Below, one piece after another: positions 7,129-34,000 of a stretch of DNA of 36,775 nucleotides. This DNA is from Amanita rubescens. Lineage: Eukaryota > Basidiomycota > Agaricomycetes > Agaricales > Amanitaceae. The DNA lies in assembly GCA_015039365.1 (NCBI GenBank), contig WION01000527.1, forward strand, positions 1-36,775, in the 5' to 3' direction. Under the pieces are notes generated by a model, which had not been told where the DNA came from, did not search any database, and was given only the letters and a program-made list of their open reading frames with translations. The translations under genes were made by a program, and so were the position numbers. Each line of letters opens with the position of its first letter. The stretch's first letter is position 1.

Positions 7129-7971
7129 CTATTTCTGTTCATGAGGGTAACAGGCACTTAAACCGTATGTTACAACAGGCTGAAAGAACAGCACTGTGCT
7201 GATATTCTGCATCACAAGAGCACAAAAAACAATACAAGTTTCAAAATCTGATTCAAAACATGTATTCATAGTAGAGGAAATCATGATTGGACATAGGTAC
7301 ATTGGGAAGAATATTTCAGGTAGAAAGGGAATTTCAAAAAATACTTGTGCATAGAAGGAACAACATAGGACAACTGCACAAATAAGTATGAGCTCAATGG
7401 AGAAGCAGCATGGCCAGTATAGCACACATGAGAAGTGATCTGAATATTACAAATAAAAATGAGCTAATGCTTGAAAGGAAATGCAGCTGATACTAAATCA
7501 CCTAAATATCATGCTGTGTGATTCACCCTGCCATCAATTATTCATAAGTACTGCATGACAGGACAAAGTACCTACCATCAATGTGAGTAATCAGCTGATA
7601 GAGTAATGTGAACAAGTCTTGATGACTGGAGTGCAAAACATCAGGAGTGATATCAGTCTTCTTCAACTTCTGAAAATAGCCTTTCTGTTTGTATTGATGC
7701 AAGGCTCGGTCAGCTGAGGCCAGAAATGGTAGGCTGATCCAAAAGGATAGCTTGGCAATGATAATAATTGCTTCAAACTTTAAGCATAAATATGTTAAAT
7801 GAAAGGATTAGTTTACAAACTAAGACTTGGCAATGATTAGGCTTGTTGCAATGGCATGAGTTGTGCACTACCCCATAAAAAAAACAAAAATACCTTGACC
7901 ATACTGAAGTCCCCTTCAATCACTTCATATGTACTTTTTGCATATTCAGGAAACATTGATAAAAGTTCACT
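7129..7971 (-). CDS. C-terminal exons of gene A
   Basis: Exon 7971-7894 (26 codons, phase 0 at both ends) encodes SELLSMFPEYAKSTYEV and more. After an intron of 116 nt, exon 7777-7576 encodes FEAIIIIAKLSFWISLPFL, ADRALHQYKQKGYFQKLKK and a tail to LLYQLITHID. Then 7439-7129 encodes a very hydrophobic stretch (CCFSIELILICAVVLCCSF) ending in a stop. The first two exons align with gene B: SELLSMF with TGLLSLF, AKLSFWISLPFL with AKLSFSIRKPLL, ALHQYKQKGYFQKLK with ALTQFKEQDYMGKLK. That cross-homology between two loci is good evidence that these are real exons and that phase 0 is right. The last exon (7439-7129) has no counterpart seen in gene B and is less certain; 6997-7083 is an alternative end. 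Confidence 0.7.
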
Positions 7972-10900
7972 CTGACCATGAGAAGGGATAAAATATACAA
8001 TGTAGTATTATAGGACCTACAAGCTGCCATGCAGACAAATATCAAAATCAATACTTCATGAACTAGCACTGCTCACCTGGAAATCAAGGAAAGTCACATA
8101 AGTGAGAGAAATGATGACATGAGGTGTGTATGGGTGAAATGAAATCTTACAATCTATGATGATAATAGTGTAAACATGAAAATGGAAAAGATATGGCAAT
8201 GTGCAACATGCTCACTGTCCGCTATACATATATGTATGAAACATTCATGAATTGTGGTATGCTGAGAATGCAGGTCAGAAAATGTGCATGAATGTCACTC
8301 ACTCACCATTGGTCATAGGACAAGATGTGACTCAGATGAGACTGCCATTCACAAAATGTGCAATCTCTGGCACTCACAAACTGTTTGTTGTACATAGAAG
8401 AAGAGACCGTGATACTAAGACTCCTTTCACAAAATGTAGACTCACAAACTGTTAATCATAGGAAAAGATACAGTGATGAGACTTTGTTTTACAACATGTG
8501 CACTCTTTAAGAACTCACATCCTGTTGGTCATAGTAGGAAAAGATATGATGAGACTGCCTTTCACAAAATGTGGGATGCCACTCACTCGCTGTTGGTCAT
8601 AGGAAAAGATGTGATGAGACTGTATTTCACAAAATGTGCAATCTCACTCACATACTGCTGGCCATAGGAAAAGATCTGATTTGAAAAATGTGCAATGACA
8701 CTCACTTGCTGTTGGTTATAGGAAAAGATGTGATGAGACTGCCTTTCACAAAATGTGCAATGACACTCACTTGCTGTTGGTTGTAGGAAAAGATCTGATG
8801 CAACTGCCTTTCACAAAATGTGCAATCTCACTCACTTGCTGTTGGTCATAGGGAAAGATATGATGACATTGCCTTTCACAAAATGTGCAATCTCACTCGC
8901 TGTTGGTCATAGGAAAAGATGTGATGAGACTGCATTTCACAAAATGTGCAATCTCACTCACTTCCTATTGTTCATAAGAAAAAGGTGTGGTGAGGGTCGA
9001 GGCTGCCTTTCACAAAATGTGCAATTCACCCACATCCTGTTGTTCATAGGAAAAGATGTGATTAGACTGCCATTCATAAAATGTGCAATCTCACTCGCTG
9101 TTGATCATATGAAAAATCCTGATGAGACTGTTTCACAAAATATGCATTGTCACTCACACTCTGTTTCATCATAAGAAAAGACTGATAAATTTTCCTTTCA
9201 CAAAATGTGCAATCATGCTTACTTGCTGTTGGTTATAGGAAGAGATGGGATGAGATGGTGTTTCACAAAATGTGCTATCTCACTCACTGGCTGTTGGTTG
9301 TAAAAAAAAAGTGGTGAGAGTCATGAGACTGCCTTTCACAAAATGTGCAATCTCACTCACTTGCTGTTGGTCATAGAAAAGATGTGATGAGACTGCCTTT
9401 CACAAATGTGCAATCTCACTCACAAGCTGTTGGTAACAGGAAAAGATCTGATGAGACTGTTTCATAAAATGTGCAATCATCTCACTCACTTGCTGTTGGT
9501 CACAGGAGAAGATCTGATGATGATGTGTTTCACAAAATGTCTGCTGTCACTCACATCCTGTTGGTCATAGGATGAAACTGGCTTTCATAGAATGTGCAAT
9601 CTCACTCACAAACTGTTAGTCATAGATAAAGATGTGATGAGACTGCCTTTCACAAAATGTGCAATCTCACTCACAACCTGTTGGTCATAGGTAAAAATGT
9701 GATGAGTTGGACTGCCTTTCACAAAATGTGCAATGACACTCACTCGCTGTTGATCATAGGAAAAGATGTGATGAGATGGCTGTGCAATCTCACTCACAAA
9801 CTGTTGGTCATAGGAAAAGATGTGATGGGAGTGCCCTTCACAAGATATGCAATCTCACTCACATACTGTTGGAAAAGATGTAATGAAATTTCTTTTCCCA
9901 AGATGTGCACTCACTTGCTGTTTGTCAGGAAAAGATGTGACGAGACTGCCTTTCACAAAATGTGCATGACACTCACATCCTGTTAGTCATAGGAAAAGAT
10001 GTGATGAGACTGCCTTCACAAAATGTCCAACCTCACTCACTCGCTGTTGGTCAGGAAAAGATGTGATGATTGGACTGCCACTCACAAAATGTGCAATGGT
10101 GCTCACCTGCTATTAGTCATAGGGAAAAATGTGGTGAGACTGCCTTTGACAAAATGTGCAATCTTGCTCACAAGCTGTTGGCCATAGGAGAAGATGTACA
10201 TATGAGACTGCATTTCACAAAATGTGCAATCCCACTCACTCCCTGTTGGTCATAGGAAAAGATGTGATGAGACTGCCTTTCATAAAATGTGTGATCTCAC
10301 TCACAAGCTGTTGGTCATAGGAAAGGATGTGATGAGACTGCCTTTCACAAAATGTGCAATCTCACTCACAAGCTGTTGGTCATAGGAAAAGATATGATGA
10401 GACTGCCTTTCACAACATGTGTGATCTCACAGTTCACTCACTCGCTGTTGGTCATATGAAAAAATCTGATGAGGCTGCCTTTCATTGTCACTCACTTCCT
10501 GTTGGTCATAGCAAAGATCTGATGAGACTGTTTCACAAAATGTTCAATCTCACTCACAAACTGTTGGCCATGAGAAGAGATCTGATGTGACTGCCTTTCA
10601 CAAAATGTCCAATCTCACTCACTCGCTGTTGGTCATAGGAAAAGATCTGATGAGACTGCCATTCACAAAATGTGCAATCTCACTCACTCCCTGTTGGTCA
10701 TAGGAAAAATATGTGATGAGACTGCCTTTCAATGTCACTCACATGCTGTTGGTCATAGGAAAATATGTGATGAGACTGCCCTTCCACTTTCAATGTCACT
10801 CACTTCCTGTTGGTCATAGGAAAAGATCTGATGAGACTGCCTTTCACAAAATGTGCAGTCTACCTCACTTCCTGTTGGTCATAAGAAAGTATGTGATGAG

Positions 10901-13635
10901 ACTGCCTTTCCATGTCACTCACTTTCTGTTTGTCATATGAAAAGATCTTCAGCTGAGACTCCCTTTCAATGTCACTCACTTGCTGTTGTTCATAGGTCCA
11001 GATCTGATGAGACTGCCTTCCACAAAATCTTCAATGTCACTCACTCCCTGTTAGTCATAGGGAAAATAAGAACAGTTATTCAGAAAATTTGCAATGTTAC
11101 TCACATACTGTTGGACAGGCAAAAAATTGGATAAGGTCATTTTTTGAACCACTAGACCAGGATGACATGCTGCTAACCTTCTATGTTTATAAGGAAAGAT
11201 GTGATTTCACTGCCTTTCACAAAACCTGCAATCACCTACAATCTGTAGAACAAAATAATGTTTCTAAATCATCTTGCATCAGAGTGGTCAGCATCACTCA
11301 CTTCCTTTTACATAGAATGAAATTAACATGATGAGTAGGGAAACAAGAGAACAATGCCACTGACTCTCTTTTTCCATAGTATTTCATATGATGAATTCAC
11401 ATCTCACAAAAGTATACATACATCCTGTTTGTTTTGCAATGGCTTGTGAAGAGACTTTGAAAAGGACAAATATTTACTGTCTGTTGTTTTGGGACAAGAT
11501 GTAATGTTTATAGGCAAATGGAGGAAATGTCACTTACTTCCTGTTATTAATCCAATGAAATTTGTTAAGACTCTCTTTCAGATAACAGTAGTCACCAACT
11601 TTCTATTGTTCATTCAGTCATGTCTCATAAACTCCACAAACATAATGTTGCTTACTTTCTTTAAGCAAGTCAGATGCAGTGTGAGGCAGTGCTGTATTAG
11701 TACTCACTCCCTGTGCATGAGAGACTGGATTGGTGACAAGTCTGCTCACAATGATAATTAACTCACTTCCTTTTGGTCATATGATCACCATGGGATAAAT
11801 CAAAATTGATGATGTCACTCACTTCCTGTAGATCATGGGATAAGATTGCTGATTACAACAGGAAGTATTACTCACAAACTGTTGTCATCAGACAATATGT
11901 CAGGTCTATGATAGTTCAATGTCACTTACCCACTGGTATCAATAATATTAAATCCTGCCACCAAAATATGGTAAAAACTAACCTGTGTTTCATTCTCTTT
12001 ATTGACCATCTGAAGCATGACTAATCTCATTTTTGTGTGAAGGTATTGGAGTATTACTTACCTATGAATGAACTTTTTTCAAAATTTTTTCAATCCATAT
12101 GTAGGCTACCTACCTCCCTGGACACCTATTGACATTTAATTTTTCCTATGCTGATGTGCAGTTTCACAAAAAGGTATACCCAGAAATGTGGAAATTTTGA
12201 AAAAACTATGAGAATGACAGTATCCCATCCCCATTTATATTTCAGAACATGTCTGAACTATGTCAATGTTAGTAAGTGACAAATTTATGTGACCCTCACT
12301 GAAGTGCAGATTTAACACAAAGGTCAACATTATTCATCTGTGTTGAAACAAACAGCTGATGTATGCTGTCATCATCTATTGCACCAGCAGTTTGCCGAGT
12401 TAATTCAGCACAATTATTCTCTGGTAAATCTGTGTCTATGAAACAGCATTACTCCCTTTTTTTTTGGGAAGAAACCCCATCTTTCTCACCTTCCAATCGC
12501 ACATATGCTTTGGGAGGGTATTTGGCATCCAAAACTTTAGGGAGATAAATGTTCTGAAAAGTGATTTCAGCAATTTCTCTGGCTCTTGCCCACTTATCTT
12601 CATCATTTGCATCAGTCAAGTTGACAAATTCACTGGCTATTTGACCATCAAATTTAGTGAATATAACCACCAAAGGAACTGTGAAGGAAATATTTGCTAG
12701 TCAGTACTAGTAGAATTTGTGGCAAGTTAGCCAATGGAAAGGAGGTAACAATAGTTAAGACAATCTCTCCAAAACCAACAAGATGAGATATGAAGTCATT
12801 AGGACTTACCTTGGCCTGTCCCTTTATTAAAGAATTCAAGTTCTGCAGGTAGAATGGGACGAGGGCTGTCCATGGGTATACAGTACCTGCAGGAAACCAG
12901 GTCAGCCATTACTGTAAAGGGATAAAGCAAGATACCAAATTGTATGCAGTTGATTCTTCAGTTCAGTTTCTGCAGACTTCTTTTCAATGAACTTCCAAGC
13001 AATCTCCAATTCCTCAGTCGAACCAGACTCAAAACCCTGAGAGTCATGGAAGATAAAGTTACTTCCAGGGTATGTAATTTGATGCTCAATATCATGCAGC
13101 CCTCTCTGTTATCATTCAAGCATGTGAACAGGTGCATCCAAACATCATTATTCATTATCTGACTCACCTCAACTGATGGCATCAAATGAATCACAGACTG
13201 TTCAAGCTGTTTACCTGCAAGAAACTTAACAGTCAAAGGAAGCACAAAACTTAGACTGACTCACCATCCTTGTCATATATGATGGGCTTTGTTGCCTTTG
13301 CTACACCACAAACCTTCTCAAGGATAGTTGTCTTGCCTGCATTAGCCCTTCCAATGACAAGGATGCGAAAGTGTGGGCATAAATAGTGCTCCCTGAGTAT
13401 TTGAACATGTGCTTCATCTGGATCTAATCATATACATATATCAGTCACCAGGCTGAGCCACATAAATTAGCCTAGTACTCAAACTCAAAGAAGGTGCACC
13501 AGTTGCCATAGCTGTGCTAGGAACACGAGTTTGTATCTGGGTTGCCTCGCCTACTGATTCCTGCTTGTATGTCTGGGCCAACTTTCCCAGTATTGAGCGA
13601 ATAACATTCTTCTTCCCATGTTGCTTATTTAGCAT
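7129..13635 (-). CDS. Gene A: P-loop GTPase with a central run of single-codon exons
   Basis: Overall model on the minus strand. G-domain exons occupy 13635 down to 12300. A poorly resolved junction follows (12299-11933). About 60 micro-exons, nearly all 3 nt, lie between 11932 and 8021. C-terminal exons follow at 7894-7971, 7576-7777 and 7129-7439, with 6997-7083 as a possible alternative end. The G domain resembles the large agaricomycete family of P-loop G-domain proteins (P-loop GRANAGKT). Function is unknown; nucleotide binding is inferred from the motifs. The gene is AT-rich compared with its neighbours. The C-terminal exon pair is homologous to that of gene B. The weakest parts are the exon 1 donor and the joint between the last G-domain exon (which ends in phase 2) and the first micro-exon (phase 0). 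Confidence 0.65.
8021..11932 (-). CDS. Array A: about 61 consecutive micro-exons, nearly all one codon each
   Basis: Minus strand. Each unit is AG, then three nucleotides, then GTNNG(T/C/A), then an intron of about 50-70 nt ending TATGACCAACAG or similar. Plus-strand start and minus-strand triplet, in transcript order: 11930 TGG, 11876 TTT, 11823 GAA, 11767 GAA, 11708 GGA, 11656 AAA, 11600 AAA, 11538 GAA, 11478 ACA, 11422 GAT, 11365 AGA, 11302 GAA, 11240 ATT, 11178 AAG, 11105 TAT, 11045 GGA, 10980 CAA, 10923 AAA, 10869 GAA, 10804 GAA, 10743 CAT, 10688 GGA, 10623 CGA, 10548 TTT, 10496 GAA, 10442 CGA, 10370 CTT, 10305 CTT, 10240 GGA, 10172 CTT, 10107 CAG, 10041 CGA, 9977 GAT, 9915 CAA, 9863 TAT, 9798 TTT, 9744 CGA, 9675 GTT, 9610 TTT, 9555 GAT, 9490 CAA, 9424 CTT, 9361 CAA, 9288 CCA, 9223 CAA, 9158 AGT, 9095 CGA, 9034 GAT, 8962 GAA, 8897 CGA, 8836 CAA, 8771 CAA, 8706 CAA, 8652 TAT, 8587 CGA, 8519 GAT, 8446 TTT, 8378 TTT, 8216 CGGACA (6 nt), 8151 ATT, 8021 CTT. 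No stop in phase 0. Phase 0 is fixed by the next exon (7971-7894). The encoded segment would be rich in Q, E, R, L, F and D. Units at 11178 and 11365 have weaker donors. Confidence 0.72.
8071..8082 (-). other. Zero-length exon (abutting AG|GT) near the 3' end of array A
   Basis: Minus strand TTTCCAG|GTGAGC, with the boundary between 8077 and 8076. It lies between the ATT micro-exon (8151) and the CTT micro-exon (8021), which are two unit lengths apart. Gene B has the same arrangement at 22151/22150. It resembles a recursive-splicing (ratchet) site. Confidence 0.5.
8280..11110. repeat. Homogenised tandem repeat (about 65 bp) forming most of array A
   Basis: On the plus strand the unit contains TCACTCAC, a variable triplet, CTGTTGGTCATAGGAAAAG, then ATGTGATGAGACTGCCTTTC and ACAAAATGTGCAATC. 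Around 44 units lie between 8.28 and 11.11 kb, many nearly identical outside the triplet. Units from 11.11 to 11.93 kb keep only the TCAC...CTGTT-like core and the spacing. The repeated part equals the proposed intron; the non-repeated triplet equals the proposed exon. Plus-strand ORFs across it are short and frame-broken, because 65 is not a multiple of three. Confidence 0.92.
8291..8312 (-). other. Array A unit with lost acceptor and a stop triplet
   Basis: Here the plus strand reads CACTCAC TCA CCATTGG. On the minus strand the acceptor that should be CAATAG or CAACAG is CAATGG, and the triplet would be TGA. This is the only unit in array A whose triplet is a stop in phase 0, and it cannot be spliced in by the normal signal. 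If it is skipped, the frame is intact. Confidence 0.6.
11933..12299 (-). other. Unresolved junction between G-domain exons and micro-exon array A
   Basis: Minus-strand sequence between the GTGAGG donor at 12299 and the first clear micro-exon. It contains a strong branch-like TTACTAAC followed by an acceptor at about 12259, another acceptor (CTCATAG), and two places where an acceptor abuts a donor directly: CATAG|GTAAGT at 12062/12061 and CACAG|GTTAGT at 11983/11982. Their spacing (about 50-80 nt) continues the rhythm of the array. I could not build a unique exon chain that restores phase 0. Confidence 0.45.
12300..13635 (-). CDS. G-domain exons of gene A
   Basis: Exons in transcript order: 13635 to about 13449 (ATG start, MLNKQHGKK; donor uncertain), 13423-13265, 13214-13168, 13105-12936, 12886-12810, 12678-12490 and 12429-12300. 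From the second exon on, every phase matches and every boundary is GT-AG. Motifs: G1/P-loop ILVIGRANAGKTTILEKVC, G3 HDSQGFESGS, WYCIPMDSPRPILPAE, and G4 VVIFTKFDG. The tail reads YLPKVLDAKYPPKAYVRLE, then LTRQTAGAIDDDSIHQLFVS. This order is what I know from agaricomycete G-domain (MMR_HSR1-like) proteins. The lysine and threonine of GKT and the aspartate of TKFD are present, so GTP binding is likely. The last exon ends CTTCA before GTGAGG (phase 2). Confidence 0.85.
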
Positions 13636-22047: not shown

Positions 22048-25000
22048 CTAGCAACTAGAATGAGTGGAATATCAACTTAATCTGGTAATGGCACACAAGC
22101 TAAGTACTCATTAGCATGTATATCAACCTCTTGTGTGTTTTACCACTGACCTAGAGAACCAGTATGATAGCACATGTCATCAGAATGTACTTTGAAGGCC
22201 ATGTATGTATAATGCCATACAATCTATGGATAATAGTGAGTGTGAATGTGGAAGAAGATAGAAAAGACAATATATTTTCTTACTTGCTGTTTGATGGGAT
22301 ATATTGAAATTGGACTCCATGGCAGGAAATATTGCAATGATTACTCACAGCCTGTTTGTATAAGGATGAGATCTGAATTCAATGCCACATTACTCACAAA
22401 CTGTTTGTCAGAGTATTCAGGGTATGAGATATGGTCAGGCCAGGTTGGAGGACAATGAAAACAGTGGTGCACCAACAATCTGTTGGTGGATGGAATTAGG
22501 GTACATCATACTATACGGCTGAAACCAGTGTGGTGCTACTGACTTGCTGTTTTTGAGTTGTAACATGACCAAGCCAAATAGAATCAAAACATGTTGTGTC
22601 ACTTACATCCTGGCAGTCTTAAATGAGACCAGTTGGGATGAAAAAAGATTGGTTTTGTGCTCACAAGCTGTTCATCACATGATACAGTGTGTTTAGAGTG
22701 CATTGTAGCAGAGCTATACTGTAGAATCACTAACTTGCTATTGCAACAATTTTGATTGGACTGCCTGGAGATGGTATTATACAGTGTCACTCACTTGCTG
22801 TTGGTCATGGGATGTGATGTGATTAGAGTTCTAAGATAAAACTCTACAATATTGCTCACAAACTGTTGCTCATTGGGAGATATGATTAGACTGACTGGGA
22901 AAAGAATACTGCAGGAGCACTTACTTGCTTTTTTGAATTGGGTGATATGTGACTGATTGATTTGCAGAAATTACTGGAGTCCCACTCACAAACTGTTCCA
23001 TGTGGAATAAGATATAATCACATTGTCTGGAACAAAAACCACATTATCACTCACTTTCTGTTAATTGGTGCATAACAAGGTATATGATTTAATTGTTTGA
23101 CATAAAAAAGCTGCATTACCACTTACAAACTGTTGGTAATTTTATGAGATTGGCTGGCAGCAGAACAAGGGAAATAGTATTATCACTCACTCCCTATTGG
23201 CTGTGAGAAGACTGAGTGGCAGAAAAACAAGAATTGCAGTATCACCAGTTGCTGTTGGTCATCAGATTTTATCATGCTGTTCTGCAGAAGATCAATGCAG
23301 CATCATCACTCACAACCTTTATGAAAGGACAACATTTGATTAAATTACCTGACAGAAGAATGTCTCAGACTCACTTCCTATCATTAAGGGATGGTATGAG
23401 CTGCGTGATTAACAAGGAAAAACTACACTGTCACCCACTTGCTGTTGGCAATGGGATGAACCATGTCATTATCTTATTGCCAAGCACAAACACAGTGCAA
23501 GCCTTATCACTCACTACCTGTGGTCCATCACAATTATGTTAGTAATGTGTGTGACCATTTGATGTAATCAGACATTGTGGCAAAATACATTCCAGTGCTC
23601 TCACCATCTATTATAAATGCATAAAACATGATTATGCTGGCTGCCAAAAAGTTTTCTGTGTCACTCACAGTCTTTTGGGATGAGGTGAGATTGCTTGGCA
23701 AAAACACTGCAGCATCACTCACCTCCTATTGGCCATGAAATGACAATGATTAGACCTGGCATAAAAAGGTCACAGAGTCACTCACCATCTGTTGGACATA
23801 TGACAAGTGTGATCACACTGCCTGCCAGAATATCACTCATGTCTCACTCACTTCCTGTTGATCATGAGAAAAGATTCAATCAAAGACCATGGACTCAGAA
23901 CATCACTATGGTAGTACTCACTTCCTGTTGGTCATGATATGGCATGTAACTAGACTATCTGAAAGTGCCACACACTTGCTAAAAACCAGCATAAATTAGA
24001 TTAACCTGGTTGCCTGGAAGAATAGGATGTGGTGACACTCACTAGCTGTTGATCATTGGATAAGGTGTAATCACATTATTGCATTACCACTCACTTGTTG
24101 TGGATCCTGGATCATGTATGTACATGAGACATGAAAACCTCTGGCAGTACAGTCACTCACAAGCTGTTAGTTATGCAATGAGGATCAGATAACTGCCCAG
24201 CAGACAAAAAATTGTGACACTCACTTCCTAAGATGCAACAATACACCACAAGACCAGGCTGCTTCAGCTTGGCTAAAAAATGGTGCACTGTTACTCACAA
24301 CCTGTTAACCAGATTTCATCAGACTCTCTGCTAGCATAGCACACCATCATCACCTACAAGCTATTGATTATCATTGCACAAAACATGATTAGGCTGCCTG
24401 GTGGAGAAAGAGTGCATGTCACCTGCTGTTCATCATAAGATGAGTCCTGAAAAAATTGCTTGGCAGGAGAAACTGAAGTGTGACTTACAACCTATGGTCA
24501 ATGTCATGAGAAGTAGTTGGACTTCAAGGCAGAGAAAGACTGTATTGCTACTGACTTGCTGTTGGTTGTGAGATAGGATATAAAGACTGAAATTCTATTA
24601 AAGCACTGCAATGCAATTCCATACTGACTGTTCATTGTGTTGTGCCAATCAGAGTTCCTGCTTGATGATCATTGCAATATTACTTACTTGCTGTTGGTCA
24701 CATATTCAGACTGCTGGGAAATGATGAGTTCATGCCACTCACAAGCTATCATAGTCATGAGAATTGAATGTGTTTCATACTGACCATGCAGAAACATTGC
24801 AGTGTCTGTTACAAACACGGTACGGACTCCTACATTATGATTACATGACACGTTGGACTCGGACATGCTTACTTTTTCGTATATGCCTACCTCTTCGTCA
24901 CATCCCCATTATGTTCATCAGACGGACTACCTCATTCCCTTATCGATCCCCATTCCGTTTACCCTATGCCCAACTCCTTGTTCATACGCGTACCATCCCC

Positions 25001-28000
25001 TATGCCCCTTGTTTTACCTATACTTGCTATCGCCCTTGTTCTACTTATGATACGGCTGTGTTTCTGTACATGTATATAAACCAATGTACCATAGCGTCGA
25101 ACCTTAAGTTCGACTTAACTGTCTTTATCAATATCACATCCCATCTCACCTAAAGAACGTCGTTTCTACTCCGTTCATTATTGCTCTCAAGGATAAGACT
25201 CCTTTTAGTTGTCTTATCACTTAGCCTATTCGTTCACCTATTGTTTGACTTGTCCGTTGGACTTAGTCTACTTTGTCAAGCGCTCTTAGCGTGGACGCAT
25301 CGTAGGTGGAGATCGACGTGATCATAACAATTAAGTCGAACTTATCAAAACGATACCCGAGTATTACCTCGTTGGTGAAACACAAGATAAATATCGAACT
25401 TCCGGAGAACCGGCCCGTTGAAACACTGCAATGTGCTCTGGGTTGTACCCAGCACTGCAGGTGCCATGCACAATAGTGCACAGACTTAAGCTAAGGCTGA
25501 TCTGAGGGGAAGGGAACTCCGATTCTCGTTCGTAGCTGATGTATACGACTACATGTGACATGTACTTATAGTAACTACCATGCGCTTACCATGCGCTTGT
25601 GGTCCGACATAATCCGACATATTCCCGCGCATCCGACGTACTCCGACGAATTCCCGCGCATCGGATCGAAGCGGATCGAAAGCGGACAGAAGTGGACAGA
25701 AAGCGGATTGAAGGATGATCAATGGCGGACATCTTCAGAAAGCTTTGGAGCATGCTGCACACTGTAACAGGATTCCATCCGTTACACCGTAGGTTACCGG
25801 TCAGCTTGCAACAATTTCGGATCAACAGAGGATACCGCCTAATCGTGCTACAAGAGGAACAAGAGGACATTATTATCTAGATCATATCGCTATCTACAAC
25901 GACCCTAAGGACCACCTTTGGAAATACGCGAAAGACCACAGTCTCGTACCAACATCAGAGTTTTGGATACCACAGAGAGCCAACAGACCACCCAACAACG
26001 CATTCTATCATCGGTTCAACGACAAATACTATCTCTTAGGATTTGAAGTCGAATTCGACGAAAATACCAAACGTTGGGGAGGATATAACCCAGGCCCTGA
26101 ATCAGAACTCACATACGAATTTGTACCAGACGATTTCTTCAAAGGACCAAAGTGGATAGAAGGAAACCCAGATAACTTACCCGAAAACCTACAGCACAGA
26201 AGCGCAGTCTCTACACCGAAAGCAGCAGTCAAAACTACACTAAAAGGTAAAACTTTTGGAGTAACACAAGAAAGCGAATCAGGAACCGAATCTAGTGATG
26301 AAAACCCCGATCAGCAATTCGAAAGTTCCAGTGACCTTTCCGAGTCGGAAGACAAAACTGTTCCAGACTTACTTAGCCCAATCGATTTCAACCCGTTTGA
26401 AACAGAACAGGAGAAACCGAGTTCCCCAGGACTTCAATACATAGAAGTCGATCCTAAACCTGATCCTAGTCCAGGACCACCAGTACCACCACAGAAACCG
26501 CCGACACCACCTCCAGAACCACCAACAGTTACAATGACAACGCCAGCAATTCAACCGATTCCTAGTCTCTTAGGAGAAATCCCTACCTTCACAGGAAAGC
26601 GATCTCAAGCACAGGATTTCATAGATCGAATGGAGTTATTCCTAGATCTCAATCCAGGTCGCATCAACACGGATAGACTTAAAATCGGACTGACGTTATC
26701 TATGATAACCGACAAAGCTGAAAACTGGAGACGTAATCAGAACGACGATCTTAACGATGCAGCAAAGACGGAAATATTATGGACCGACTGGACAGGATTC
26801 AAAACCAGATTCCTCAATAACTGGCAAGAAATAGATTCACCCGGAAACACGTACACAGAATTAGTACAGCTTCAGAAACGAAAAGACAAGAAAGGAAAAC
26901 GAATCTCAATCCCAAAATACGTTGGTTTATTCAAAGAACTGATAAAGAAAGCTGGAATCACAGGCAGTGCCGCTACCCACATGTTCGGACAAGGACTCGA
27001 CGCCAACACGTACAGAGCAGTCGTAATGAGAGACCCCAAAACCTTGGACGAATGGTACGAAGGAGCACTTAGAGCATATAACGCCGAAACACGTATTGGC
27101 ATTCTAGCAACCAACAGAGGAGGATCATCTTCACACAAACCCCCTCGAAACGAATGGGATATGGATCTCGATGCAATAATTCTTGGCGCGTTATCTAAGG
27201 ATGAACGAACCCGACATATCCGCGATGGACTCTGTTTCATATGTCATAAACCGGACCACATGTCAGGACAATGCCCCATGAGGAAGGATAAAGGATCTTA
27301 CAAAGGAAAGAAGAAGTTTAATGGAAAGAAAGGAAAGAAATTCGCACACGGTCGTCATATTCGAGCAACCAAAAAGGATGACGATGGCAGTAACTATGAA
27401 GACGTCGAAGAGTCTAGCCAGCATGAACAAGAAGAAGAAGAAGAAGACACTAGCGACAGAACGATACGCGCTATGTTAAAGAAACTCTCTCCAGATCAAC
27501 GTATCAACCTCCTTATCAACGCGGATAAACCGGATTTTTGACAGTGGGACACATGTCAGTGGATGCCTGTCCCATAACTTCGGATTCAACTCCAAAGGAC
27601 GATCTTTCGATATCACCTGTAATAGTACGTTCTATTTCAAGCAATCGATTATCTATTCCCCTCGAAGTTGAAACCGAAGACAACACTGAATCAATGACTG
27701 CACTGGTTGACAGCGGTGCAGAAGGTTTATTTATTAATTCATCAATCACGCTGAAACACTGCAATGTGCTCTGGGTTGTACCCAGCACTGCAGGTGCCAT
27801 GCACAATAGTGCACAGACTTAAGCTAAGGCTGATCTGAGGGGAAGGGGACTCCGATTCTCGTTCGTAGCTGATCGTATACGACTACATGTGACATGTACT
27901 TATAGTAACTACCATGCGCTTACCATGCGCTTGTGGTCCGACATAATCCGACATATTCCCGCGCATCCGACGTACTCCGACGAATTCCCGCGCGTCGGAG

Positions 28001-31000
28001 CGGAGCGGATCGAAGCGGATCGAAAGCGGACAGAAGCGGACGGAAAGCGGATCGAAGGTGGATGGCGGAGGACATCTTCGGAAGGCTTCAGAGCATGCTG
28101 CACACTGTAACAGGATTCCATCCGTTACAACGCATAAATGGAGAAAGAAGAAACTCGCAAGACCAATCCGAGTCAAGAACGTTGACGGCACATACAATAC
28201 GAATGGAGAAATTTCTGACAAGTGTTTGATCACCATCGATATCAATGGAAAGAAGATGACCGAATGGTTCTTGGTCACTTCGCTTGGCGATCAAAACTTG
28301 ATACTGGGGCTTCCGTGGCTCGAGAAGCATGACCCAATCATAAGCTGGAGGAATAGAACTCTGGAGTTCCGTAACTCTAAAGAAGACGAATGGAAGGCAT
28401 CAATACGGAGCATCTTGCATCGACTCGATGAAGAAGCAATGCCTAAATGGGAAGAAGACGTCGTAATTCGGTATTTGTTGTCACACAAAGGACCAGAAGA
28501 GAAGAGTCTACGTTGGAAACCACCATTTGAAGATATAGGAAGATGGACTGAAGAAGATTATGACGAGATCACGATTAATCGCTATTCACCAGCTCAACAA
28601 ATGGAACATAAGTACAACACCGATCAGAAGGAAATCACGCTACCTCCTGAGTATCTCGAATGGAAAGAGATATTTGAAAAACAAGCGTCAGAACGATTCC
28701 CGGACCGCAGATCTTGGGATCACGCAATTGAACTTCGCGAAGATTTTATACCAAAGAAAGGGAAGATCTACCCAATATCACCATTACAACAGAATACGCT
28801 TGACGAATGGATCAAAGAACAACTAGCTAAAGGATATATACGACCATCCAAATCTCCGCAGGCAGCACCATTCTTTTATGTCGAAAAGAAGGATAGCAAA
28901 ACACTCAGACCCTGCCAAGACTACCGATACTTGAACGAACACACGAAACCAAACTCTTACCCCCTACCACTCATATCCGATCTGATGCTACAACTTAAAG
29001 GATCACAATACTTTACGAAACTAGACATCAGATGGGGATACAACAATGTTCGTATCAAAGAAGGAGACGAATGGAAAGCCGCATTCATCACGAATAAAGG
29101 ACTATTCGAACCAACGGTTATGTTCTTTGGATTACGCAATTCACCAGCAACATTTCAAGCAATGATGGACGATTACTTCAGGGACTTCATGAACGAAGGA
29201 TGGATTGCCATTTACATGGATGACATCTTGATACACGCGCGCAACAAACAAGAACTCGAGAAAAGAACAAAGCTAGTACTCGCAAAATTAAAAAAACACG
29301 ATCTTTACCTGAAACTTGAAAAATGCAAATTTGCCGCCGAGGAAGTGGACTTCTTAGGCATGATAATCACGAAAGACACGATAAAAATGGATCCAATAAA
29401 ACTCGCTGGAATCAGAGACTGGCCCCCTCCGACAACAGTTAAACAAGTACGCTCGTTTCTTGGATTTGGAAATTACTACAGACGTTTCATATCCGGATTC
29501 GCGCATCTCGCACGACCCCTTCACGACTTAACAAAGAAAAACAAAATATGGGAATGGACACTAGAATGTAGAGTCGCCTTCGACTCATTAAAGGAAAGTT
29601 TCGTAACAGCACCAGTACTAAAGATGCCAGATGTCAATCAACCCTTCATACTCGAAACGGATGCATCTAAATGGGCTGTCGGAGCCGCCTTAATGCAGAA
29701 AGACGAAAACGGAGACTTACACCCTTGTGGATATCTCTCACACACACTTACGCCCACCGAACGAAATTGGCAAATCTACGACCGAGAACTCTTTGCCATA
29801 ATTTACGCCCTTGACGAATGGAAATATCTACTGCTTGGAGCAGAACACACACTCACTATACACTGCGATCACAAAAACTTAACCTATTACCGCGCACCAC
29901 AACGTCTCACAGCTAGACAAGCAAGATGGTGGAATAATCTCTCAAGATACAATTACCAATTAATTCACGTACCCGGAGCAAAATTAACTCAAGCGGACGC
30001 CTTATCCCGCCGACCTGATCACACTAATGGAGAAGAAGATGACGAAACAGTCACGATGCTCCCTGACTCACTATTTATCCAAGTCATCGCCGAGGATCTC
30101 CGAGATCAAGTAAAGAACGCAACTCAAACCGATGAGTTTGCCGAAACCATTAGAAGATGCTTAAAGGAAAAAGGAACAGCGCCTCTCCGCACAGCAATCA
30201 CCGATTGGACCGAAGATGACGGAATTATCCTATTTAAAAACAAAGCATACGTCCCAATGGACTCTGATCTTCGCCGATCTATTATTAGAGAATACCATGA
30301 AGCACCAAGTGCAGGACACCCTGGATTCTTCAAAACACTTAGCCTACTAAGGGAACACTATTGGTGGCCTAGAATGACAACACTTGTCAAAAGTTTTATC
30401 GACGGATGTCTTACCTGTCAACAGATGAAACCTAATACACACCCCACCGCCGCACCCCTAATGCCGATTAAATCCCACGCACACCGACCATTTCAACAGA
30501 TTACTATGGATTTTATCACCGACCTACCGCCTAGTGACGGTTTTGATTCTATCTTTGTCGTGGTCGACCAAGGACTTTCAAAGGGAGTAATTCTATGTCC
30601 CTGTAATAAAACTATTACATCAGCCGAAACCGCCGACCTCTATATCAAAGAAGTTTTCAAGAACTTCGGATTACCAGACATCATGATATCTGACAGAGGA
30701 CCGCAATTCGCAGCAAAAGTCTTTAAAGGGATAACCAGCGCACTTCAGATCAAACATAAGATGAGCACCGCCTTTCACCCTCAAACAGATGGACAAACGG
30801 AACGCTATAACGCCGTACTAGAAGTATATCTCCGCATATTCTGCGCTTATGAACCAGACAAATGGAATAAGATACTTCCCATCGCACAATTTGCTCATAA
30901 TTCTAGAACGCATGAAGAACTGAAACAATCACCGTTCTACCTCATGTATGGATCTAACCCTGTGGCACTACCTCAGGTTACAGAACAGTCAGCTACCCCT

Positions 31001-34000
31001 GTAGCAGATGAACGCATCAGACTCCTGATCAAAGCAAGAGAAGAAGCTCTGGCAGCACACGACCTTGCACGCCTTAAAATGGCACAACGAACGATGAAAC
31101 ATTCTAAACCGTTCAAAGAAGGAGAAAAGGTTTGGCTAGATTCAAAGAACCTATGCATTCCTTATCAATCACGTAAACTCGCACCTAAACGAGAAGGACC
31201 CTTCAGGATAAAGAAAGTCTTAGGACCTGTCACCTATCAACTAGACTTACCAAAACAATGGAAGATACACAGCGTTTTCCACGCATGCCTACTATCACCA
31301 TATAAAGAAACAGAATTCCATGGACCTAATGACACACGTCCACCACCCGACCTGATAGAAGGATCAGAAGAATACGAAATAGAAGCTATTCTCGCACACC
31401 GAAAGATCGGACGTCAATTACAGTTTCTCGTCAAATGGAAAGGCTATGATACAAGCGAAAACACTTGGGAACCCCAAAGGAACTTGTCAAACGCCGAGGA
31501 TATCCTTGATGAATATAAGAAACGTAGGAAACTCTGAATGAGCAAAGATTACACCTACAACGACTCAGAAACCACCTATGAATCATGGAATCAACAAGAA
31601 CCTCACCGACAATCTCGCCAACAACGACGAGAGCACCATCACCGGAACCGCCCATATACTCAGTCTTTACCCAGACAACGACGACAACACCACCACCACC
31701 GACGAATCCCCCGATACATCCAATAATCAGGATGCTAGCAGAAGGACGACGATCACCGAACCCAATAGGCCACGCCTCGTTCCTTATCACAGCGCTTCAG
31801 ATTCTGACAAAGAGAATCGATCTGATGATTCACCCAGAACAAGCCGAGCTACGAGTCCTCACGATACCACAGAAGATCAAGGTAACGGAAGACATAATGA
31901 AGATACAAGGAGAACTAGGAAAATACTTGATAACATGCGAAAGGTATATCATAACCCCGACTCTCTTGCCGAATTCGACAAGGAATCAACTGGCGATCTT
32001 CGCGACAGAAGCGATGATAACTACCCAACTAGCCCTAGCAGTCGTCGAATCATGGCAGACATCACTCCCTCTGAACCTCAGACGATCTTTACGACATTCG
32101 CAGACTATAACAGCTCAGCTCTTATGCGAAAGACTATTGACGATGTAACGTACCGATTCCGGTTACGTTGTGCAGCAGGCATCCGCGGCCCGATATTCCG
32201 ACATCGGAGATATCCGTCGGAGCATTCCGACGCACTTAAACCTTCGCGCCTCGACACCCGTACACGATGCCAAGGGCTCAACCCGCCGACTCGACATATT
32301 CATACAGCAAGGCAATCCGCATACGCGCACGGACCATCGGAGGAGCTCAGGATGATTGCGGTGAGTGCGCCTCGTGCATATTAGTTTATATACGGCTTCA
32401 TTGTACTGTATGGACATCAGAATATACTGCCCTTCACTCCTCCGCATCCGTTTGATATCTCTCCGTCGCAACTTCGTTGCACTCACGTTCCTTTACGTCG
32501 CGGGTTCACTCCGTCACCGTCGTACGTCTTCGCACTTGTCCGACTTCGTTCCGTCGCGACGCATCTTCGTCGGACTTGCGTCCGTTTGCATTGCGGGTTT
32601 ACTCCGTCACCGTCGAACCCTCCGTCTCCGTACTCTGTACGGTTCCCCTTTGTTAGCCTTTCCTTCGGACCCCTTTGGGCGGACAAGTACATCGCACGCC
32701 CTTCTCACACGTTTCAACGATATTAAAAGACTTTCCGGCCTGTCAATCAATTCTCAGGAACTGGAACGACTTACCAGACTCTGGCGCATTCTCTCAGACG
32801 CAAGACTCGCCAAGGCAATCATCGTCAACGCTCGAGAACGATACAACTATCACTGCGCAGATCTTATAGAAATCTGGACCAACTTAGATCGCATGGAATG
32901 GTACACCAAACTCTCTCATGGATGCACCATCCACCAATTTGGAATCGACCTCTTACGTCGAATCCTCACCGCTGACGTAGAACGCTTCTACGAACAAGCC
33001 ATCCTAGACGTCAGGAATGAAGCACACCCTCCATTCATCCTTAACGACGACCCCAACGATCTTGTCGCCATCCATCACAGCTTTGACCCTCACAGGATCG
33101 CACCAGATGCACAGCATATCTTGGAGCTTACAAACAGAACCGAAATCGGAGCAATCGCCTTAGCTGATCTAGCAGATCGAATCAAGGAGATCGCCGAATC
33201 TTCTAGACGGACCACCGCATGGACAGAAGATCTGTTTACCAAAGGAGCTAAACCGCAGCAACTCTCTCACAACGCCTATGAAGAAGTTGCCCACGTCATG
33301 ATGGAATTAGATCTCCATCAGAATCTTATACCTTCCACGCCCGTCGCCCAGACTGCCGAAAGGTTTAAGAACCTCGGACGCTCGCTCATTCCCCAACATA
33401 ACCTTTATCGACTATGGAAGGGAACGCAGAACAGACCCAACAGACCCCCACCATCTCCAACGCCGCATCGGCCTCCACCCCCTCCGCCTTTAACATCAGC
33501 GCTTTCGACGGCCGAGAACGTCTCGCCCGCATCCACCAGGAAATCTCGGATTTCCTCCATTACCAGTCCCACGTCCGGCTCTTTGCCGCCACATCCCTAC
33601 CGCCAACAGTCCCTCGTCCCGACGACGAATCCAAGGAGCGCATCATCAAGCTCCTTAAAGAAGAGAACCGACGCCTCAAGGTTCTCCACAAACTCCTCAA
33701 CTCACTTGAGGCCAACAACGAAGAACTCGTCCAAACGTATACGGACACACCCACCGACTGGAACGCAGGAGGATGGAACCAGGACGAATGACTTCGACGT
33801 CTTCGTCGACAACTCTGCCGGCTATCATCCTTACGACGATGAAAACGCCCGCCACAACCTCGACACCTAGAGGATACCCGCATATTGTTGTTGCGGTCAA
33901 CAACGTAGAGGAGAGCTAGTGTTACAAACACGGTACGGACTCCTACATTATGATTACATGACACGTTGGACATGCTTACTTTTTCGTATATGCCTACCTC

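Follow-up and report, generated by a model that had tools for sequence, protein, structure and literature searches.

The window analysed here is the whole of contig WION01000527.1 (C470) of the mushroom Amanita rubescens, 36,775 bases within a 75.7-Mb assembly. Its minus strand carries a gene of a GTPase family whose middle is occupied by array A (11932-8021), a long series of units that each read as an intron acceptor, three nucleotides and an intron donor, i.e. as candidate one-codon exons. The gene runs from G-domain exons (with the motifs GRANAGKTT and TKFD) to an exon ending ..KFPHFW, through array A, and on to the exons SELLSMFPEYAK.., PNHCQVLV(S) and IIIIAKLSFW... A second family member, with array B, lies in the same window. 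The features are as follows (P, L and C numbers denote public proteins, own-genome loci and contigs).

13265..13423, minus strand: G-domain exon with the P-loop GRANAGKTT, read from the sequence
13168..13214, minus strand: G-domain exon, from sequence and homologues
12936..13105, minus strand: G-domain exon, FHDSQGFESG, from sequence and homologues
12810..12886, minus strand: G-domain exon, WYCIPMDSPRP, from sequence and homologues
12490..12678, minus strand: G-domain exon, VPLVVIFTKFDG, with at least 150 own-genome matches, haplotype copies included
12300..12435, minus strand: G-domain exon, DTDLPENNCAEL..VKSALQ, from sequence and homologues
12180..12252, minus strand: exon HVLKYKWGW..KFPHFW; FPHxW is also in P0001, P0010 and P0011
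12114..12125, minus strand: 12-nt exon VSRE (VDRE or VDRA in relatives; P0001 has VDRA here)
11983..12009, minus strand: predicted 27-nt exon MVNKENETQ (MANxQLSExQ in relatives; P0010 has EMANKQLSEAQ)
11045..11932, minus strand: conserved first part of array A, 16 predicted one-codon exons WFEEGKKETDREIKYG with introns unlike one another; the P0001 counterpart is WFEKGKKESDREIEYDG
8378..10982, minus strand: variable part of array A, 42 predicted one-codon exons with introns of one repeated type, from the sequence and its period-65 repeat
8216..8221, minus strand: predicted 6-nt exon CGGACA (two codons) near the end of array A, from the sequence
8021..8153, minus strand: last predicted one-codon exons, ATT (8153-8151) and CTT (8023-8021), with a zero-length AG|GT site between them; P0121 has ..CLKI-C-DELFSMF
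7894..7971, minus strand: C-terminal exon SELLSMFPEYAKSTYEVIEGDFSMVK, phase 0; P0121 has DELFSMFGDGQRNFAVK at the corresponding place
7817..7841, minus strand: C-terminal exon PNHCQVLV(S); P0121 has PTDCQVLVS
7576..7770, minus strand: C-terminal exon IIIIAKLSFWISLPFLASADRALHQ..THID, with at least 150 own-genome matches, haplotype copies included
22218..36775, minus strand: array B, second family member, a predicted one-codon-exon array with dissimilar introns, from its AG-NNN-GTNNG sites

The original prediction had placed about 60 consecutive AG-NNN-GT units between 8021 and 11932, and this count stands: all 60 triplets have AG before and GT after them, and none is a stop codon. The first 58 units are spaced 52-73 nt apart (mean 62.3) and their triplets translate to WFEEGKKETDREIKYGQKEEHGRFERLLGLQRDQYFRVFDQLQPQSRDERQQQYRDFF, to which the last two add I and L. 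On the minus strand of array A there are 45 occurrences of the strict motif [CT]AG-NNN-GTRAGY and on its plus strand 0, against a chance mean of 0.145 in 200 local shuffles, and the 24.5 kb of other window sequence holds two. A typical unit shows the donor GTGAGTGAC, a CTATGAC branch-like element and a CAACAG acceptor, with an intron of about 62 nt, and a tandem repeat of period 65 spans 8513-11066, part of the array.

The run is less regular than had been described, with one unit near 8307 missing its AG acceptor and the 6-nt exon standing at 8221-8216. At 8077/8076 (minus strand), between the last ATT and CTT exons, AG abuts GT directly with no exon between (CCAG|GTGAGC). A zero-length call at this place of the array end recurs in many paralogue models, and was kept as a real oddity.

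Joined together, the G-domain exons give a weak match to MMR_HSR1 (21.7 bits, slightly below the 21.9 cut-off; E = 2.2e-4). Motifs of the TRAFAC P-loop GTPases (GxxxxGKT and TKxD) are present: among 18 aligned proteins TKFD is invariant and GxANAGKTT nearly so. A protein search limited to the region returned the query itself as the sole match.

Array units across the gene family

Array A exists as first described but is not isolated. Array B has 78 AG-NNN-GTNNG sites in 4.9 kb against 4 antisense, with a C-terminal exon at about 21870-21680, and a strict paired two-unit pattern, ACAGNNNGTGAG..ACAGNNNGTGAG, finds 3051 matches across the genome against 145 for the reversed pattern. Each end of the gene has at least 150 own-genome matches (lists that include the haplotype copies), and ends paired by hand are mostly 2.5-7 kb apart. 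Among the matches listed, 10 of 11 clusters of the paired pattern lie downstream of a G exon of the GTPase family (one 12-20 kb downstream).

Exon length was examined in 40 own-genome paralogous loci together with the two window arrays. The sample includes near-copies (L030-L032; L010, L011 and L017), and L009 is the haplotype copy of array A, so that unit counts are not independent. An acceptor stands exactly 3 nt upstream of 1837 of the 2172 strong donors, against 4 antisense. A splice-chain search in which exons of 0-30 nt were weighted alike made 1970 of 2112 exons 3 nt long, the next commonest lengths being 0, 6 and 24. An end-to-end chain search that allowed exons of 0-160 nt was completed for 38 of the 40 loci and array A (39 models; array B, L027 and L047 left out). 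Of the 2499 internal exons it predicts from FPHFW to IIIIAKL, 2141 are 3 nt long, i.e. most are microexons of a length divisible by three. These models have 27-94 three-nucleotide exons per gene (median 54), a longest unbroken run of 71 (L024) and introns with a median of 62 nt. Site scores in both chain searches were trained on 3-nt units, donors separately from acceptors.

Zero-length, 16-19-nt and 1-nt calls near the array start were set aside as splice-score artefacts in some loci examined. The recurring zero-length call there marks, where examined, the end of a missed 27-30-nt MANxQLSETQ exon, and the recurring 17-nt call conceals a 3-nt GAA/AAG exon with a GTTAGC donor.

The triplets carry a coding signal. 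Among 1386 distinct units, counted with a GTRAGY donor only and with expectations from base composition by position, there are 2 stops where about 91 are expected (TAA 0 against 55.2, TAG 0 against 7.0, TGA 2 against 28.9), and TGG occurs 33 times against 3.7. Most amino acids are represented mainly by one codon, ending in A or T. Endings in NAG and YA are rare, we infer because they would create a competing acceptor. When the exon is taken as the codon, the joined triplets hold 2 stops in 2032, compared with 6 in 1930 one base later and 218 in 1930 in the remaining frame; the first of these frames was chosen on the flanking exons and the contiguous proteins described below. A captured gene, read in the wrong frame, was considered as the origin of the joined triplets and rejected, as no contiguous genomic source was found for them except weak low-complexity matches; the natural look of the triplets one base later probably follows from their NNA/NNT alphabet.

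Some further observations concern particular loci. A strict paired array motif at C1:764461-764525 has no G exon of the GTPase family nearby among those listed. Array B is split at ~24780-34440 by a Ty3/gypsy-like retroelement, with open reading frames at 26534-27541 and 28058-31537 and similar flanks at 24764-25153 and 33919-34260. A GC donor (a TGG codon, then gcaagtga) is seen in L050, L052 and array B at about 36108. At L049 (C566), a locus that is partly N, a 5.8S match, the single one among 39 of 2808 candidates scored, looks dipteran; it is followed by a 2S-like stretch, a motif which we take to be dipteran, and this suggests fly DNA in the mushroom sample.

Contiguous proteins, codon divergence and rival explanations

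A search with the joined protein of the window gene gave 760 matches, of which the best 120 were examined and 23 proteins were read. At least 7 of the 23 (P0001, P0010, P0011, P0019, P0021, P0024 and P0052) extend past FPHxW into the array region, and these sit on contigs of 1.4-1.9 kb; the remaining proteins stop earlier, change over to different sequence, or are only distantly related. P0001 reads FPHLW-VDRA-V-TNEQLSETK followed by its counterpart of the 16 conserved codons, and the conserved first array codons are read by P0010 and P0011 as well.

When the joined L021 protein served as query, ten matches were obtained, among them P0121 (156 amino acids, on a 2135-nt contig), which agrees with the L035 array at 52 of 59 one-codon residues. 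The L035 codons are spread over 3782 bp of DNA, and the array prediction for this locus predates knowledge of P0121. The alignment scores 243, while the next best of the 39 models scores 46 and 200 shuffles have a mean of 35.3 (standard deviation (SD) 6.7, maximum 67). The length differences between P0121 and L035 are four single residues, all extra in P0121, and the protein runs on into the C-terminal exons with 90% identity over 67 residues. P0024 is identical to L050 at 12 of 15 consecutive one-codon exons, and lacks the G-domain introns of L050. From the missing introns and the contig sizes the jgi contigs would be cDNA, and those of P0121 and P0024 are most likely transcripts of related fungi.

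The original prediction read the middle of this GTPase gene as one codon per exon. That reading is strongly supported for the family by stop avoidance, the dominance of 3-nt exons, the paralogues, and the proteins (P0121 with L035, P0024 with L050, and, at the conserved first codons, P0001, P0010 and P0011). The triplets are very likely joined between the G domain and the C-terminal domain. For array A we set at about 0.87 the probability that it consists of 60 three-base units of the GTPase gene that would be spliced codon by codon into a variable protein segment.

Several points weigh against this reading: (i) Three of the proteins that enter the array may end in a retained intron. The ends of P0001 (score 54; shuffles 34, 43 and 33) and P0010 (47; 32, 32 and 38) resemble translated intron; that of P0011 matches no better than chance (43; 35, 40 and 43), with the match beginning exactly at array donors. 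(ii) P0049 (260 amino acids, 1098-nt jgi contig) lacks array residues: it leaves the FPHFW exon within ..IIIVFSK and continues out of frame into the last intron and the C-terminal exon of L045 (score 76; shuffles 42, 37 and 38), so a skipped or damaged form exists. (iii) The deposited A. rubescens model P0063 (C650) joins FPHYW to the C-terminal part with no array residues, and none of the 46 deposited A. rubescens proteins (F5887DRAFT) among the 120 of 760 matches listed covers more than 66% of the spliced query in its best local alignment. (iv) The joined triplets are almost stop-free one base later too, which avoidance of YA endings would explain. (v) One-codon exons of the conserved part are barely better conserved (0.90, 0.93 and 0.95 by position) than intron bodies (0.89), as measured over 10 exons in the 30 of 39 models left after removal of near-duplicates; the comparison does not discriminate, because the paralogues are young. 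(vi) Three of the eight young arrays displayed (L011, L028 and L031) have 2- and 4-nt exons and are apparently out of frame.

The odd exons of these three arrays (AATT, CA, CATT, CAAT and CTTC) lie between identical or near-identical introns, and partly compensate one another. Introns also matched the tails of P0013, P0053 and P0076; these matches were rejected, being at or barely above their shuffles (35 against 38-43, 32 against 30, and 39 against 38).

Codons and introns diverge very differently in the young arrays. In nine of them (300 units), selected for introns within 6 mismatches of the commonest intron, the share of units departing from the commonest base is 47, 61 and 33% at the three codon positions, against 0.9% at intron sites. 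Both flanking introns are identical in 86 groups of at least two units, and 14 of the 86 contain differing codons; the largest group draws 156 units from eight loci, and these agree in all 124 flanking bases and carry 19 codons. The remaining groups mostly represent copies at near-identical loci. L010 and L017 are 0.7% apart in introns and 35% in codon bases, with 22 non-synonymous and 0 synonymous changes under a unit pairing that is arbitrary wherever introns are identical; L010 and L011 are 0.2% and 27% apart. Ten pairs were compared for exon and intron divergence. Older ones are about equally diverged in exons and introns (array A/L009, 0.038 and 0.033; L042/L043, 0.044 and 0.036; L039/L046, 0.105 and 0.083) or less so in exons (L013/L014, 0.020 and 0.051; L014/L015, 0.009 and 0.011), and L036/L037 (0.471 and 0.131) have unrelated codon strings.

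Among recent relatives, nine pairs have codon strings that align clearly, with z above 12 and a drop to 4.4 for the pair that follows, and relatives differ in array length by whole codons. Adjacent codons are identical more often than expected in young arrays (78 against 49.9, SD 6.0), with a smaller excess in old ones (125 against 101.0, SD 9.1), as would be expected if single units duplicate. In L024 an 18-unit block is duplicated along with its intron marks, and by our count by eye 5 of the 18 codons have been replaced, three of them at all three bases.

Two alternatives deny or restrict the splicing itself. Were array A a minisatellite within one large intron that is removed whole, its intron-like unit being chance or a relic, then the period-65 repeat, the lack of array residues in P0049 and P0063 and the limited coverage by deposited proteins would all be natural. 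We regard this as highly improbable, because the 3-nt spacing persists, despite dissimilar introns, both in array B and over the first 16 units of array A, the triplets avoid stops and have TGG in excess, they are present as residues in P0121 and P0024, and P0049 is out of frame past its join. In a minisatellite variation would extend across the whole unit free of coding constraint; here stops are avoided and variation is concentrated in the codons. It is also unlikely that the one-codon exons are mainly alternative-splicing cassettes, skipped in subsets or as a whole array to give many isoforms per gene. The frame would be kept when 3-nt phase-0 units are skipped, P0049 is without the whole array and P0001, P0010 and P0011 may retain introns; yet no L035 codon is missing from P0121 in the aligned stretch and none of the 15 L050 codons from P0024, and the four extra residues of P0121 are equally explained as extra units in its own gene.

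The other two alternatives concern the origin of the codon diversity. Young arrays might have arisen by introner-like gain, one intron being copied in at about every 3 nt of an existing coding stretch whose codon diversity is older, and this would suit both the perfectly identical introns that flank different codons and the odd exons that restore the frame (AATT then CA), as if intron positions had slid. We think it rather unlikely, as the joined triplets of five young arrays lack a contiguous genomic source, bar four weak low-complexity matches on C557, in a search that skips simple repeats; furthermore, L010, L011 and L017 have near-identical introns but different codon strings, and the duplicated block of L024 retains matching intron marks around its replaced codons. 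A mutation process targeted at the 3 nt between introns, which the concentration of changes at the codon positions of young arrays and the purely non-synonymous changes of L010/L017 would fit, seems improbable to us: in the older related pairs exon divergence is close to that of introns or lower, and the codon excess, being found mainly in young arrays, can be explained by unit exchange. As the source of the codon diversity we favour duplication of units together with exchange among nearly identical ones, under selection for novelty; by these steps codons would be shuffled.

Predicted splicing, possible function and known systems

Intron definition is usual in fungi. The typical array intron carries a full set of signals, so that each ~62-nt intron is predicted to be recognised across itself, with no exon length needed. 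Since there would hardly be room for two spliceosomes at a spacing of 3 nt, neighbouring introns would have to be excised one after the other, and the donor may be so strong because 3-nt exons offer U1 and U5 no constant exon sequence. Array introns are phase 0 in the proposed frame, so gain, loss, exchange or skipping of units alters whole residues and not the frame.

An AlphaFold2 model of P0019 (18 sequences; mean pLDDT 74) is fairly confident for the G domain and the C-terminal helical part, with pLDDT below 50 at residues 297-312 and 318-356, in the array-equivalent region. Foldseek with this model places the immunity-related GTPases (IRG) GM4951 and Irga6 best and bacterial dynamin lower, all weakly (TM-score about 0.29-0.36 by query length). 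A segment that is hypervariable and probably flexible, carried by a large family, may serve to recognise something variable. Family expansion, hypervariability and the weak fold match suggest that what the segment would recognise might be nonself or a pathogen. Taken furthest, the arrays could serve to rewrite a protein residue by residue: codon cassettes between interchangeable introns could be added, lost, exchanged from gene to gene or altered with the frame intact, and about a hundred genes would thereby provide hypervariable recognition segments on an immunity-like GTPase; we advance this tentatively and hold it somewhat doubtful.

The arrays bear on the lower limit for exon definition, since long rows of three-base exons, dozens at a time, appear to be spliced in a eukaryote, and they make intron definition, splicing order and spliceosome spacing directly testable on natural substrates. 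They suggest a way to vary a protein in one-residue steps at little risk of frameshift, and a gene class seemingly missed by the deposited annotation. Identical introns decoupled from diverse codons pose a sharp question about the origin of new sequence. Features so remote from known gene architecture are rare in a raw window.

The likeness to immunity-related GTPases is the weak fold match given above. Fungal NLR repeat domains resemble the arrays in belonging to families that have expanded and in which a variable segment adjoins a nucleotide-binding domain; their variation lies in ordinary coding repeats and not in one-codon exons. Micro-exon genes of Schistosoma belong to fast-evolving families with many copies, and their numerous tiny exons mostly have one phase. 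Bicycle and megacycle genes of aphids share these properties with the mushroom arrays, and one megacycle gene has more than 100 microexons (PMC9168663; this and the papers cited below are represented by the available portions of their text). Bicycle genes have ~17 exons on average, nearly all internal ones in phase 2, and the available text does not describe single-codon exon runs or near-identical tandem introns (PMC9168663). Near-identical spliceosomal introns have been multiplied, as here, in fungal introner-like elements (PMC4457414) and repeated stwintrons (PMC9024468, PMC8469720), where the copies stand at separate gene positions, in contrast to the head-to-tail copies ~3 nt apart in the mushroom. 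Recursive zero-nucleotide splice sites allow stepwise removal via AG next to GT, an arrangement also found near the end of array A; they are described mainly from very long introns and leave no exon, whereas the arrays keep 3 nt per step (PMC13149111).

Within the PMC holdings searched, arrays of single-codon exons were not found described. The earlier statement that no fungal precedent is described holds for runs within this scope; isolated 3-nt exons are reported, two of them in lipS genes of Dactylellina haptotyla (PMC5639578, available portion). In plants, microexons go down to 1 nt, with two adjacent in rice (PMC8831610). Such isolated 1- and 3-nt exons of plants and fungi resemble the array units in being tiny and spliced, with GTRAGT-type donors at conserved 1-nt exons; as far as these two sources go they number one or two per gene, against up to 71 called consecutively in L024 (PMC8831610, PMC5639578).

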